A DNA stretch of 64,000 bases, taken from the NCBI GenBank assembly GCA_010093485.1, contig MU001510.1, positions 699,709-763,708 on the forward strand, given 5' to 3'. Numbering within the stretch: the stretch's first letter is position 1; the number at the start of each line of letters is the position of its first letter. The translations under genes and the position numbers were made by a program. This document shows, piece after piece, positions 7,577 through 64,000 of this stretch. This DNA comes from Karstenula rhodostoma CBS 690.94. Lineage: Eukaryota > Ascomycota > Dothideomycetes > Pleosporales > Didymosphaeriaceae. Below the pieces are notes generated by a model. It saw only the letters and a program-made list of their open reading frames with translations. It was not told the origin of the DNA and did not search any database.

Positions 7577-9856
7577 GATTACGAGCCCGGGTTGTCGCCC
7601 ACCGCTGCACCCGTAATACTTCTATTCTCTCTACACGCTCAGCTGCACCACCGCCGCCTCAGCTACCTGCTACAGTCAACGGCTGCGTCACAGCACAGCT
7701 ACCCGCTGACGCCTGAGCCGCTGCCCGCCGCCGTCCGCAGCACCACCTGTGACGCCTGCACCAACCCAGCGACACCCGCTGCGACTGCAGCCGCCACAGC
7801 AACAACACTACGGCTTCACCCACCATGAGCGATTTCTAAGTCGCAAACCCGCCATCAGGCACCTACACTCCTTCGGTATCAAGGCGTACGTACACATACC
7901 ACAAGAAGCCCGCAAGCCTGGCACGAAGCTCCTACACCGCGCCGAAGCCGGCGTATTTGTTGGGTATGAACGCGACACGAAAACCGCACACGTATACATA
8001 CCAGACCAACACGCTGTACTCAATCTTTCGCCTCATGGAAAGCTCCGCCGTACTTCAGCCACGCGGCGGGTGACACCGTCCCTAGCATGCCGTGGACCGA
8101 GCAACGAAACCACCCGCAAACGTGCCACTGGACCTCCGCCACGCCAAAGACGACCTGGCGGACGTGGAGGACACACCAGTCTCGCCGTTTGCAACGCCAC
8201 ACGCACGAAGGACGGCGTCCAATATACCGCCGCCCGAAACCAGACCGGTGGCACCATCCATACCCGCCGCTGGACCTTCGCACGGCGGCTCAAACGCAGG
8301 ACCCTCTCACCAAGCACGTCGACGCGCCGCCGCGACGCATGCGCTCTGCGACAGTTCCACACCAACTTCAGTCACGTCAGTCACGACGACACGCTTTGGA
8401 CGCTAAGTCAAGCCAATATAGAAGGCACGCGACGCGCAAAACAACGCTCACATCGCCAATATCACAGAACCGAGTGACTCGATTCTGTACCCGCCGCCCG
8501 ATCAACTGACAGCGGTAGAAATCTACGCGTACGCCGCCACCGCTATTGGCGATGAGACACCGCGCACGTATTACGAAGCAATAAACGAGACCAATGCCCC
8601 GCTATGGCGCCCGCCCATCGCACACAAAATACAAGCTCACGAGCTCAACGAAACATACGTCATCCTGGATATAGAAGATCTCCCGGCTGGTGCCACATTG
8701 GTCGGGACAAGGTGGGTATTTGATACTAAGAGGAACGAACAAGGCAAGATTGTGAAGCGAAAGGCACGCCTCCACTGCGGCGGCTTTTAACCCTTGCGTT
8801 TTCACCCCAAGGACCTTGTCCTCGGCGTTTACGTCGACGATGTCTTGATGGCTGGCACGCCCAAAGCTATAGCGGCCTTCATGAAGGCAGCCGGCGACCG
8901 TTTCCGAATAAAGGACCTTGGCAGGCCCAAATTGCTACTTGGCCCGGAATTCGACTACGACGATGACAACCGCCGCGTATATCCAGCGGACATATACAAA
9001 GGCCCTGCTACGGCGATACGGCATGCAGAACTGCAATGGCTGAAAGACGCCGCTGGACCCGAACCACTTTCCGCAGCAGTCGTCCGACGAGCCAGTCGAA
9101 CCGAATCGACCGACTCGCGTCGGATCTGTCAACTTCCTAGCCATCGTCTCACGACCCGACCTGTCCTACACGGTGAGTATGCTTAGGTCATACAACTCCA
9201 ACCCGTCCGAACAACACGCATGGCTCGCTGCACAAGTACTTCGATACATCTAAAGCACTCGCGACGCCCGTATTGAGGTCTCTAGCAATACAGGCACCTG
9301 GCAACTATGTACACTGACGCCTCGTTCGCTACTGATCCTGACAACGCCAAATCGTTCTCTGGCTATGTGTTCAAAGTCAACGGCTCGACATTGGCATGGT
9401 CATCAAAGCGTTACGGCTTCATACGCAGCCGCGTACCTCGTCTGGTCTCGACTTGCGATCACCGAGCTGGTTTCTGCTGCCACTGGGACATGTAATTGGC
9501 GGTACAAGCTACTGGTCGATAATCAACCCGCCATCGCCCTCATCTAGGACTCCAATATCAGTGCTCGCTCGAAGCATATCAATGTACACTATCACTTCGT
9601 ACGTAAGAGGCACCACAAAGGCGAGTATAAAATCAAGTACGTAGCGTCTAGCAACAACCTCGCGGACATGTGCACAAAGGCGCTCCCGTTGCCCACCTTC
9701 ACGAAGCTTATAGACGGCGTCCGAACCGCCACTAGCGATTGACGCAGCGGACCAAAACTGACGCCCTCGTTTCAAGTCACTCGATATTGATTCAGCGACC
9801 CGCCGATCAGCGGTCCATACGGCGGACATAACAATGGAGGTAGACATCAAGGACCA

Positions 9857-39276: not shown

Positions 39277-40399
39277 GATGTTAGCTGGAGGAGTCAAAAG
39301 TCTTCCTCACAGGTGACCATATCAAGCTCGCCTGGCCCTCAGTCATATTTGATAGGCGGTAACATAGCGCTTGGGGTAACAAGCACGTACGACCCTAATA
39401 ATGCACGCCGAGAAGCAGGCCTGGGGCATCCTAACGCTTTGGGTGTAATCGGGTCTGCTTGCAGATCACGAGATACAGTAACTTTACACAGTACTTGGGG
39501 ATAACTAAGCCTCCAGTCTCACAGTCGCCCGAGAACCACATCTGGGCAGCGCCAGCTAGCGCAACAGCTAGCGATGCAACCAATGGTTTTCTAAAATGGA
39601 TTTGCTGATAATGGGATTTTTAAGTGAAGGCAGGGAATGCAGCAGCAACATGTTATCCTTTTATCGCATTCTAGTGTCTACTGAGTTGTGGAAAACGAGC
39701 TTGCGCGCCGTGCCTAGAGATACAATTACTGTTCTCGACTTTTGAAATGGGGAAAGCGTCGCAACCAACACCATTCACGTTTTGACGCATGCGAATTCAA
39801 TACCCGATTCAGCTCTGCAGTACATTTCAAAATCTGCTAATACCTCTTAATAACACGGGTATCGCGTAGCGGCAGACAGTGGTCTAGAAACTGAACCTCA
39901 AAATTGACGAAGAAACGAAAAGTGCGGAACTGGCGTCCCAGCGTCATCGGGGGCTGGTCGCATTACGCGCTCTTGGCGGCACCACTGCGTCGCGATGGGC
40001 CAACGCCAAAACGATTATTGACCGGAACCCTCACCCTCTGCACAGACGAGCGGAGTCGGTGGTGGCTCAGGACGATCCGCAGGTGTTACAGACTCCTAAT
40101 GTAGATTACGAGGGCGGTGCGGCGTGCGAAGGATTTGACACGCATCAGGTCAACAATTGGCTAGAGATTTGACACCGAGGCGTGGCCGAGTATTACCAAG
40201 TGCCGCCTCCGTGTCAGATTGAAGCGAATCACCCTCGAACGCGTAGCAGCGTACACTTACGATACAAATATTTCAGTAAGTTTTCAGTGACGGGAACAGC
40301 CGTTGTAAGATACAGATCAGGGTGGCAGCAGACGCAGGGATGCTTGATTCTTCCTCAAGCGCTTGGCAACGCCGAAGCAGCTCAGTGAAAAAGGTCGCG
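39277..40399. other. Gene-free; expected 5' edge of a Starship-like element
   Basis: No gene is seen. Three similar short motifs (TTGGGGTAAC at 39371, TTTGGGTGTAAT at 39438, CTTGGGGATAAC at 39494) lie within 230 bp upstream of the recombinase start. The insertion edge, if present, should be in this stretch, between the captain start and the U2 snRNA gene. Confidence 0.4.
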
Positions 40400-40634
40400 T
40401 CAATCAGCAGAAGTGCAGCGCTGATGACACTGTGGCCTCGACTGTGAGCAAGCCCAGTGAGAAGAGGCCCAGGTGCAAAAATAGGAATAATCATAATCGT
40501 CTTCGTAAAGACATTTTAGTGATTAAACTAAAAAGAACAGACTATCGTTAAGTCAGCGAGAGGGCGACACTAGGCTAGAAGCGGGAGAAAACTCACTACT
40601 ACACTTGATCTAAGCCAAAAGGCAAAGAGAGCTA
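40400..40634 (-). ncRNA. U2: U2 spliceosomal snRNA, interrupted by an intron
   Basis: The minus strand reads CTCTCTTTGCCTTTTGGC then TTAGATCAAGTGTAGTA, almost identical to yeast U2 5' sequence, including the GUAGUA branch-site recognition element and the region that pairs with U6. After a 55-bp interruption (40542-40596) it continues TCTGTTCTTTTTAGTTTAA, whose stem IIa pairs TTTTTAG with CACTAAAA. Stem IIb (GTCTT-TACG-AAGAC), the Sm site ATTTTTG, a GGCCTC/GAGGCC stem (III) and a final ATCAGC/GCTGAT stem-loop with a TGCACTT loop (IV, the U2B'' binding loop type) follow. Exonic length would be about 180 nt, normal for U2. The RNA base-pairs with intron branch sites in the spliceosome. 5' and 3' ends are estimates. 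Confidence 0.9.
40542..40596 (-). other. Putative spliceosomal intron inside U2 snRNA
   Basis: 55 bp: GTGAGT donor, GCTGACTTAAC branch-point region about 10 nt before the end, and GATAG acceptor. Removal joins GTGTAGTA to TCTGTTC exactly as in uninterrupted U2. Length and signals equal those of the protein-coding introns in this window. Confidence 0.85.
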
Positions 40635-40665
40635 AAGAACAGAAGAAGGGGAGGGAGCGCGCGCG

Positions 40666-40673
40666 TTTATATA
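40666..40673 (-). promoter_or_regulatory. TATA box of the U2 snRNA gene
   Basis: TATATAAA on the minus strand, about 32 bp upstream of the estimated U2 5' end, the spacing of a Pol II promoter. A pyrimidine-rich stretch lies between the box and the start. Confidence 0.75.
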
Positions 40674-41221
40674 CGTTGTGGGCGCGCTAGTGCTAGCGTG
40701 CCGAGGCGCTAAACGGGGCAAGGACTGTCCGTGCGCCTGGTGGCAGGCACTGTCCGTGCGTCTGCGGCGACAGAAGCTAGCAGGTGAAGAGGCGGGAGGG
40801 TGGCTGGGTGAGGCACCACTCAGGTGAACACCGGCGATATAGTACTAGCCTGAGGTACTCTAGGATCCACTATTCTATACGTCGTTCGGTGTTGTTCTTC
40901 CTGTGTGCGAAGGCTACTTACAATGCTTCATCTCGTGTCACTATTAGGCGGCAGCCACAGCCTGGATTTTTCTCTATCACTTTATAAGATACCACTTCCT
41001 GGTTCGTGTCAATAATTAGAAAATCATCACATCCCGTCTTTATGTTCCCATGAGAGAGCAGCCAGCAGGTAAAGGCGGGAGGATGGCTAGGTAAGGCACC
41101 ATTCTCACGGAAGGTGAACACCGGCAATACAGTACTAGGTCCAGATCATAAACCTGTATAGTAAGCTGAGTTATCCTAGTATTAAATTTTCTATATCTAA
41201 CTAGCAAAGGCCTTAGCTTGC
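40674..41221. other. Intergenic with internal duplications
   Basis: Contains the direct repeat pair 40776-40850 and 41060-41140 and a short duplicated CACTGTCCGTGCG motif (40725-40765). No gene recognised. Confidence 0.45.
40776..41140 (+). repeat. Direct repeat of about 75 bp, second copy with G-to-A changes
   Basis: Copy 1 (40776-40850: AGCAGGTGAAGAGGCGGGAG, then GGTGGCTGGGTGAGGCACCA) and copy 2 (41060-41140: GATGGCTAGGTAAGGCACCA, then GGTGAACACCGGCAATACAG) are aligned along their length. Several differences are G in copy 1 versus A in copy 2, plus C-to-T, as RIP would produce, though they fall short of the usual RIP length threshold. Confidence 0.7.
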
Positions 41222-61159: not shown

Positions 61160-64000
61160 ATGACGAATCCCACCTATGACACTACAGATGTCCAAACCAA
61201 TGGCCACAGCGACGGCCATACCAACGGCTCATCCAACGGCCATACCAATGGCTTGTCCAACGGTCATACCAATGGCTCGTCCAACGTGGTAAACGGCCAA
61301 ACCAACGGTTTCGAGGGTGTTAGGAACGGCCAAACAGATGGTGGCCTCCACAATATCAGCGGAACACCCGTAGCCATCTGTGGAATGGCAATGCGACTCC
61401 CCGGTGGAATCACTAACGATCGTGAGCTGTACGACTTCCTTTACCACAAGGGCGACGCCCGCTCTGTGGTCCCAGAAGACCGATACAATACCGAGGGCTA
61501 CTACAGTCCAGACGGGCGCCACGGCACCATCAACACAAAGCAAGGTTACTTCTTGCGGGACATCGACTACTCCAATCTCGACCTCTCGATGTTCACTCTC
61601 AGCGCTGCTGAAGCAGAGCAGCTGGACCCAAACCACCGGCTCGTTCTCGAGGTGGTGCGAGAAGCGTTCGAGAACGCAGGCGAGCGTGGATGGCGGGGCA
61701 AGAATATCGGTACTTACAGTGGTCTGTTCACCGAGGACTGGCAGGAAATGGCCCATCGGGATAACCAGGACTACAACGCACATAGAGTCCTGGGTGGTAC
61801 GGACTTTGCGCTACCCAACCGCGTGGCGTACGAGTACGACCTCAAGGGCCCCAGGTAAGTAGTGACTCGTGGTCAAGTAACATCCATAGAAGTATCGCTA
61901 ATTGTAGACCAGTATGGTGATAAAGACAGCTTGCTCATCTGCAGGTATAGCGTTGCACGAGGCCCTGGAGGCGATTCGTGAAGACAAGATTACTGCTGCA
62001 GTGATCACAGGATCCAATTTGATCATGGGTAAGTGACTCCTTCCCGAGGAATGAAATTTGGCTGAAATCTTCGTGCACAGCTCCGGGTTTGAACATCAGC
62101 CTTACCTTGCTGGGTTCACTCTCACCCGAAGGTTCTTCCAAGTCCTTTGACGCTTCCGCAGACGGGTATGCGCGAGGCGAGGCGGTGTCGGCTCTCTATA
62201 TCAAACGTCTCGATGAGGCCATCAAGGACGGTAACCCAATTCGGGCTGTCATTAGAGCATCGGCCACTAATGCGTAAGTTGGTGTTATCCTCCAGACTCT
62301 GCTCCTATCTCTCAAGCCACCGCAAGACTCCATATGCTGACTGCACGCCACCCAGCGACGGCAAGTCTAACGGCATCACCATGCCCGAGGGAGAGGCGCA
62401 CGAGCGATTGATCCGCCAGGCCTACAGCTCCATAGGCCTAGACATGTCAGGTACTGCCATGATCGAGGCGCATGGTAAGATTTCCCTGTATCACCAGTTC
62501 CATCTAGCATTCTAATACCTCCTTTCTAGGCACCGGCACGAAGGTTGGCGATCCAATCGAAGTGGGCGCAATCGGGAAATGCTGGGGAGAAGATGGCATT
62601 TACATCGGAGCCGTAAGTGAAGTGCCCGTGCAGTCTTCAGAAGCTGTAATGACAAGTGTGGTGACAGAGCAAACCGAATCTCGGCCACAGCGAGGGCGCC
62701 GCGGCTCTGACGGGCGTGATAAAAGCCGTGGTGTCGCTAGAGCATCGCACTATCCTTCCAAACATCAAGTTCGATAACCCCAACCCAAGAAGTACGTCGC
62801 AAAAAGAGTGCATGTATGTGGAGGGTGAATAACATCGCTCCAGTTCCCTGGAAAGACCTCAAACTGACGGTCCCGATCTGGCCAACGCCTTGGCCCGAGA
62901 ACAAAGCCGAGCGAATGAGTGTGAACTCCTACGGTATCGGCGGCTCGAATGTGCATATCGTCATCGACTCTGCAGCTTCCTTCGGCATCGCCGCACCGCC
63001 CGCGCCGAAAATATCTTCCACCGAATCCCCGCGCAAATCCCTCCTCCTCTTTTCTGCGAATCACGAAGAGTCCTTGAAACGCGTGTCTAGCAATGTCAAG
63101 TCCTATCTCGATCTGCACCCAGACCGCGTTGATGACGCGGCGTACACTCTCGCTTCGAGAAGAGAACACATGAAGCTCAGGAGCTTCGCGGTGTGGAAAG
63201 GTGCTTCGGAGGGATGGGAAGTGGCGCCGAAGGTGAAGTACCAGGGCCCTTCAAAAGCGGCCTTTGTTTTCACAGGACAGGGTGCCCAATGGTGAGTGCA
63301 ACACGCATACATAGCGTACTAGGGAACGTGCGACTGATGGCGCTGTAGGGTGCACATGGGTCGCGAGCTGATGTCCGACTACCCAAGCTTTCTGGCCAAC
63401 ATTCGTTCAATGGACAAGGTCCTACAAGGCTTACGTCACGCCCCATCCTGGACCATAGAAGGTTCGTAGCCGTAGCTACACGTCATCGCGGTCCGCAGTG
63501 CACTGATTTCACAACAGATGTTCTTACCAATGTAGCCGACAAGAACGTTCTCCTCGAACCGGAATTCTCGCAGCCTCTCTGCACAGCATTGCAAGTCGCT
63601 CTCGTGGATCTGCTGGCCACCTGGAACATCAAGCCCTCAGCGGTGATCGGGCACTCGTCAGGTGAGCTTGCCGCGGCCTATGCTGCGGGTGCTCTCAGTG
63701 CGAAAGAAGCTGTCATTGCAGCCTTCTACCGTGGCCAGGTGTGCAAGACGCCTAAGAAAGTCGGTGGAATGGCGGCTGTAGGTCTTGGGCGAGACGACGT
63801 GTATCCTTATCTTGCCGCTGGTGTTCGAATCGCTTGCGAGAACAGTGGTTCCAGTGTTACCATCTCAGGCGATCTTGAAGCCCTTGAAGTGGTCATGGCG
63901 AAGATCAAGGAAGACCTGCCTGATGTCCTGTGCAGAAAGCTGCAGGTCAAAGCCGCGTACCATTCGCGTAGGTCACAGAAGTAACTCCGTGTCGTTCCAT
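61160..64000 (+). CDS. Highly reducing type I polyketide synthase, 5' part (KS-AT)
   Basis: Starts at ATG 61160 and runs off the window. Residues 1-65 are a low-complexity N/G/H/T-rich leader. The KS domain follows: [14 protein letters not shown], the active-site cysteine in [11 protein letters not shown] (assembled over an intron ending GTAGACCAG), the first histidine in [13 protein letters not shown] and the second in KPNLGHSEG. Linker and AT domain: [10 protein letters not shown], the nucleophile [12 protein letters not shown], then KAAYHS, where a GTAGGT donor begins the intron in which the window ends. At least seven introns (about 45-60 bp) are seen and none breaks the frame. KS features place it with fungal highly reducing PKSs; DH, methyltransferase, ER, KR and ACP would lie beyond 64000. 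It would build the reduced carbon chain of the cluster product, which cannot be named from here. Confidence 0.92.
61195..61290 (+). repeat. 24-bp coding minisatellite in PKS leader
   Basis: Imperfect units like AACGGCCATACCAATGGC with TCGTCC spacers encode repeated NGHTNG(S/L)S in the disordered N-terminus, about four copies. Confidence 0.8.

Follow-up and report, generated by a model that had tools for sequence, protein, structure and literature searches.

A U2 snRNA gene of Karstenula rhodostoma split by an apparent spliceosomal intron, in a family of intron-bearing and intronless copies

Here, we report a U2 snRNA gene of the ascomycete Karstenula rhodostoma CBS 690.94 that reads as a complete U2 once a 55-nt GT-AG insert is taken out of it, directly behind the element that pairs with intron branch sites. 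The gene lies on contig MU001510.1 within a 64,000-nt stretch (positions 699,709 to 763,708, forward strand; hereafter the window, from whose first letter the coordinates below are counted). It is one of eight U2-related loci in the genome. On our best reading, the insert is a genuine spliceosomal intron, and the paralogue that carries it is not alone in supplying U2; we consider the fuller account highly probable, i.e., a spliced Pol II-type U2 gene in a family with gained and reshuffled introns. In this account the gene, equipped with a TATA box and a 3′ element, would be transcribed as a precursor; the major spliceosome, supplied with U2 by two intronless genes, would remove the 55-nt intron; and splicing would join GUAGUA to UCUGUUC to give a normal U2. 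Within the small dispersed family, three unrelated introns (i1, i2, and i3) would have been gained in some copies and then reshuffled between copies, most simply by gene conversion.

Anatomy of the gene and signals of its apparent intron

Only one hit in a cmscan of the window reached gathering score. It is U2 (RF00004), spans 40635-40389 on the minus strand, and has 92.2 bits (family cut-off 46 bits), an E value of 4.5e-17, and coverage of model positions 1-192 of 192. This is the covariance-model scan of the unspliced locus that the earlier note had proposed, and the note's observation of a U2 gene split by an apparent spliceosomal intron holds; the location it gave, 40400..40634, was right up to the exact ends, the gene starting at 40635 and finishing at 40389. 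The 55-nt insert falls in skipped or poorly aligned positions of the cmscan alignment, and the gene (copy d, L004) was recovered again by the genome-wide search with the U2 model.

Exon 1 (39 nt; 40597..40635, minus strand) comprises the 5′ end, stem I, the U2/U6 region, and, as its last element, the branch-recognition sequence GUAGUA; it ends in GATCAAGTGTAGTA and is identical over its 39 nt to copies e and a. Intron 1 (55 nt; 40542..40596, minus strand) begins with GTGAGT, ends with TAG, and has a homologous intron in copy e. Exon 2 (153 nt; 40389..40541, minus strand) provides stems IIa, IIb, III, and IV, the 41 scored pairs of the whole gene forming without the insert, and it contains AUUUUUG (40476..40482, minus strand; seen in the sequence and in the cmscan alignment), the Sm-site motif. 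The junctions read GTGTAGTA / GTGAGT...GATAG / TCTGTTC, exactly as had been noted from the sequence for a 55-bp insert immediately after GUAGUA, and a one-base slide of either junction no longer gives U2. Because neither junction slides, the GT-AG intron is the very cut that restores U2; without the insert, the branch-recognition element, stems I, IIa, IIb, III, and IV, and the Sm site are all present.

The signals of intron 1 are of the spliceosomal type. Fungal introns are described in section 3.2 of PMC5832005 as having a GTRWGT donor, an RCTRAY branch site 6-36 nt before the end, and a YAG acceptor. Intron 1 has a GTGAGT donor, a TAG acceptor, and a predicted branch site GCTGAC (40552..40557, minus strand) that fits RCTRAY and places the branch A at 40553, 11 nt from the intron end; the branch region had been given as CTGAC/CTTAAC, of which the CTTAAC part does not fit the rule. 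With one donor mismatch tolerated for window and inserts alike, these rules are satisfied by only 6 of the 127,890 possible 55-nt stretches of the window, counted over both strands, intron 1 being among the 6; across the lengths scored, 2 to 6 of about 127,900 stretches per length pass. Intron 1 is thus more than a chance stretch. All five insert instances in U2 copies, together with the insert in a U6 gene (see below), pass the same rules with at most one donor mismatch and a branch distance of 9-18 nt.

In length and signals, intron 1 resembles the mRNA introns of its own genome. Six well-supported introns of actin-family genes are 50-77 nt long, and five of them have RCTRAY 10-19 nt from the end, the exception being that of L058; please note that the script imposed YAG and a near-consensus donor on these introns, so only length and branch site are independent points of comparison. 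This set draws on 6 of 12 loci, and 4 of 10 intron calls were left out for low gain (25-51).

Elsewhere in the window, we observed a retrotransposon polymerase remnant with an SH3_retrovirus domain (7749-8474), part of a cytochrome P450 (48268-49548), and a ketoacyl-synthase domain (61160-61855). One window protein has its nearest named relative in Lojkania enalia (84% identity), followed by Kalmusia and Periconia, among the best 120 of 2035 matches. Lojkania belongs to the Pleosporales, where Kalmusia and Periconia are placed too.

The U2 family and the structure of its copies with the introns removed

The U2 model was searched at E values up to 10 against the whole genome (44.3 Mb, 29 contigs) and 14 control genomes. 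In the own genome, eight matches were obtained, six of them above the cut-off, and none of the 14 control genomes gave a match over the cut-off. One weak match (L008, 19.7 bits, E 1.77) was set aside as chance, and a DNA search with copy e as query added a 3′-half copy on contig 17. The resulting eight loci consist of two intronless copies, one with i1, one with i1 and i2, one with i2, one with i3, and two decayed ones. Of the intronless copies, a is L001 on contig 14 (142.9 bits) and b is L002 on contig 5 (137.3 bits), both of them complete genes. Copy c (L003) lies on contig 19, 16 kb to the left of the window and about 56 kb from copy d on the one contig; it has intron 2 only (52 nt) and is 5′-truncated, its first 16 nt not being U2-like. 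Copy e (L005, contig 11) has both intron 1 (62 nt) and intron 2 (52 nt), and its Sm site reads AUUUUUA. Copy f (L006, contig 15) has a third intron of 49 nt, GTAAGC...ACTAAT...TAG; it is divergent, with GAAGUA in place of GUAGUA and stems still well paired, and may be a U2 variant or a gene in decay. The last two copies, g (L007, 34.2 bits) and h (L017), have a decayed appearance. The three intron sites are thus placed after GUAGUA (i1), before stem IIb (i2), and in stem-loop IV (i3).

A search with the 5′ core pattern GATCAAGTGTAGTA at up to one mismatch returned the five known copies as exact matches plus seven one-mismatch sites, the reversed control pattern returning seven as well, so it reveals no further U2 copy above control. 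The pattern ATCAAGTGTAGTAGTRNGT matched once in viral_contigs and once in genome_contigs, with no U2 around either match.

The two intronless genes change what the split gene would mean for the cell. The earlier note had argued that the RNA that recognizes branch sites must itself be spliced. Intron 1 does adjoin the branch-recognition element, but the implied dilemma is softened, because, with copies a and b, the supply of U2 does not hinge on the splicing of a single gene; copy d is, in principle, dispensable. The note had also counted an intact intronless U2 elsewhere, together with silence of this locus, against its own reading, and the former is what copies a and b provide.

Selection on the spliced form was evaluated with an alignment (A1) of six spliced copies, leaving out g and h of the eight. 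Among the 41 pairs, 14 change on both sides, and 95.1% of the cells are paired. For four of the five measures, none of 500 shuffles came up to the observed value; the remaining one, which counts further pair types, was reached by 145 of 500 and shows nothing. Pairing falls to 35-42% when the partners are slid, a comparison that favors the unslid version in that the structure was laid out on copy a. Relative to intronless copy a, copy d has 29 pairs unchanged, 11 with double changes, one with a single change, and none broken; copy e has 40 unchanged and one double change, again with none broken. Cells changed to unpaired relative to copy a number two in copy b, three in copy c (stem I), and eight in copy f, five of the latter reflecting a one-column alignment shift in stem IIa (where the arms TTGTCG and CGACAA do pair) and three not.

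Copies d and e also allow the intron to be compared with the exons beside it. The exons flanking intron 1 differ at 0 of 67 sites, whereas intron 1 has 55 aligned sites, of which 7 are mismatched, and a further 7 gap columns (Fisher p 0.003 versus exons); just three of the differing sites fall in its first 45 nt, and its end has diverged with a change of length. This contrast favors an intron that would be removed from a useful product. The stem constraint may be partly older than the intron, and the flanking exons could have been kept alike by conversion.

The introns and exons of the family form a mosaic. All four combinations of i1 and i2 are present, i.e., neither (copies a and b), i1 only (d), i2 only (c), and both (e). 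Single gains on one tree cannot give four combinations, so recombination or precise loss is needed; the introns have been shuffled by gene conversion or lost precisely. Nine exon sites are informative among copies a, c, d, and e: six group c with d, two group d with e, and one groups c with e. The six are located at 113-169, and some of them are stem partners. Copy b has the c/d state at five of the six, so this state may be ancestral. The mosaic is most simply read as gene conversion, and the copying back of spliced RNA is a possible second route. No target-site duplication that convinced us by eye was found at the 5′-truncated copies L003 and L010 (the latter a U6 locus).

Flanking elements and alternative explanations

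Copy d has a TATA box, TATATAAA, at -38 (40666..40673, minus strand), in the same place as in copies a, b, and h; the flank scan found TATA in copies e, f, and g too. Its 3′ flank (40349..40388, minus strand) has a conserved element ending in GAGGAAGA that is presumed to direct 3′-end formation. The scan found this element behind copies a, b, c, d, e, f (where it occurs twice), and h, behind both U1 loci, U3, and the U4 locus L026, and a similar stretch was seen by eye only at the U4 locus L025. A third element, TCACNTGAC at -82 to -88, is exact in copies a, b, and e and in U1, occurs with one mismatch in copies g and h, U3, and U4 (L025), and is absent from copy d in the flank scan; copy d may therefore be weakly expressed. 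Copy e has a fuller promoter than copy d, including TCACNTGAC, and copy c showed no promoter element in that scan. A common snRNA layout is seen in the flanks of L001, L002, L005, L011, and L035, with TCACNTGAC near -84, TATA at about -38 to -42, and a 3′ element, roughly 40 nt long, whose end is GAGGAAGA or a similar sequence. Window positions 40769-40848 and 41054-41138, which lie upstream of the U2 gene, are 78% alike.

The absence of TCACNTGAC gives room to the best surviving alternative, that copy d is a decaying, poorly expressed paralogue whose intron is real and perhaps spliced, with U2 supplied by the intronless genes. Two intact intronless genes and the decayed relatives c, g, and h in the same genome speak for it as well. 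Weighing against it are the 11 double changes and 0 of 41 broken pairs relative to copy a, a complete 5′ end, and the presence of the Sm motif, the TATA box, and the 3′ element. We regard this decay as possible but less likely than not.

It is also conceivable that the intron is kept as a feedback switch, so that copy d yields U2 only at high splicing capacity because the unspliced RNA has a broken branch-pairing region. The regions split by i1 and i2 are ones that pair with the branch site or fold beside it, and the first 45 nt of i1 are well kept between d and e, as described above; the diverged end and changed length of i1 argue the other way, as do three sites in different copies that look like chance gains. 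On this evidence a switch is very unlikely. A chance GT...AG insert in a pseudogene that is never spliced is very improbable: random DNA does hold such stretches, though rarely, yet two independent U2 inserts are each common to a pair of copies, a third U2 insert and a U6 insert exist, the junctions are exact with intron signals, and the stems carry compensatory changes. Short GT-AG inserts at several sites of one gene family might further suggest a mobile introner-like element spread through the genome, which we find scarcely credible, as DNA searches of the own genome, which could overlook very diverged copies, gave matches at U2 or U6 loci only, far from the many copies expected of such an element, and no significant likeness was found between i1 and i2 (p 0.27 to 0.96).

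Origin of the introns and relation to known systems

Both of these last points come from comparisons of the introns with the genome and with one another. DNA searches of the own genome with i1, i2, i3, and the U6 intron gave matches only at U2 or U6 loci, and intron 1, outside its homologue in copy e, had no genome match at E up to 10; as such a search scores none but the best candidates and passes over common words, strongly diverged copies may have escaped it. Homology of i1 and i2 was tried on account of 31 matching columns in one alignment and rejected, the above p values coming from shuffles that keep the signals (four pairs, two shuffle kinds). Other unlike pairs were not significant either, the lowest value, p 0.08, being that of i3 and the U6 intron in one of the two shuffles. 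Given that the introns are not alike, four separate gains would be the simplest count.

Of the two U6 loci, one is intron-bearing. They form an inverted pair on contig 3, about 330 bp apart: L009 (L009:1501-1700) has a 54-nt intron, and its neighbor L010 (L010:1501-1599) lacks that intron exactly and is 5′-truncated, matching L009 at 100% of 47 nt and 96% of 48 nt. L010 may be an example of the copying back of spliced RNA mentioned above, but it could also be older than the U6 intron. The intron of L009 contains a B-box-like sequence, GTTCGAGTCC; Schizosaccharomyces U6 introns likewise hold a B-box-like sequence. No intron-sized insert was found in the best loci of U1, U3 (one locus found), U4, and U5, with the reservation that the U1 loci score below the family cut-off (45.5 and 41 bits).

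Several of these loci are unusual in other respects. The second U1-like gene (L012:1467-1800, contig 15; 41 bits) has in its 5′ part UAACUCACG where U1 has AUACUUACC, a sequence that would be able to pair with GUGAGU donors, the kind present in U2 introns 1 and 2; to judge by TCACATGAC at -119 and a CATAAAAG box, its transcript may begin about 30 nt further out, with an extended 5′ end as a possible result. Of U5, a single locus was found (L024, contig 10), which has TATA at -31; the scan showed neither TCACNTGAC nor the 3′ element there, and a B-box-like GGTTCGATTC and T-runs lie behind it. This locus may be transcribed by Pol III or may adjoin a tRNA remnant. A second U4 locus (L026, contig 6; 82 bits) has a 5′ end that is not U4-like, comparable to copy c and L010.

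Six RNAs were looked at, and three unrelated intron sites were found in U2 and one in U6. U2 and U6 stay with the excised lariat. Introns in these two alone fit a gain by reverse splicing into the core RNAs of the spliceosome, the sample being small, after which conversion or reverse transcription would spread or erase them; we consider this origin unlikely. If it did hold, conversion and reverse transcription would make the U2 family a live record of intron gain. The U2 intron of Rhodotorula hasegawae is reportedly 60 bp long and located immediately downstream of the branch-recognition domain, and, under reverse splicing, intron 1 would have come to lie at, or close to, a site used independently in a basidiomycete, a proposal that we find doubtful.

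Takahashi et al. (1993, Mol Cell Biol 13:5613, as cited in PMC2586383) reported the intron in the U2 gene of R. hasegawae, which is likewise an mRNA-type intron in U2. R. hasegawae is a basidiomycete yeast, whereas the host of copy d is an ascomycete, and the present genome has introns at three U2 sites, with one copy carrying two of them and others none. Introns of fungal U6 snRNA are the subject, to judge by its title, of Canzler et al. 2016; those of U6, as in fission yeast, also interrupt a core spliceosomal RNA, and the present genome adds its own U6 copy with a 54-nt intron, but U6 is a different RNA and a Pol III gene. For fungal U3 snoRNA, PMC5832005 describes eight genomes with both intron-bearing and intronless copies and a few genes with two unrelated introns, i.e., a small structured RNA with splice and branch signals as in U2 here. 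There, the U3 paralogues are without diverged families and the introns cluster in one stem, whereas the U2 copies here have diverged and have three intron sites, the single U3 locus found in this genome showing no intron. Among the open-licence matches listed, no report of a U2 intron in an ascomycete was found, which is weak evidence of absence. The within-genome U2 intron mosaic appears to be new for an ascomycete.

A genome that holds copies with and without introns of a short and highly constrained gene side by side offers an uncommon opportunity to observe how introns are gained, lost, and transferred. With four intron sites in two core spliceosomal RNAs, and intronless U2 paralogues as internal controls, the family offers a natural test of intron gain and movement, and the long-standing proposal that introns arise by reverse splicing could be examined directly with relatives and RNA. 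Retention of an intronless back-up also suggests how a central intron can be tolerated in an essential RNA.
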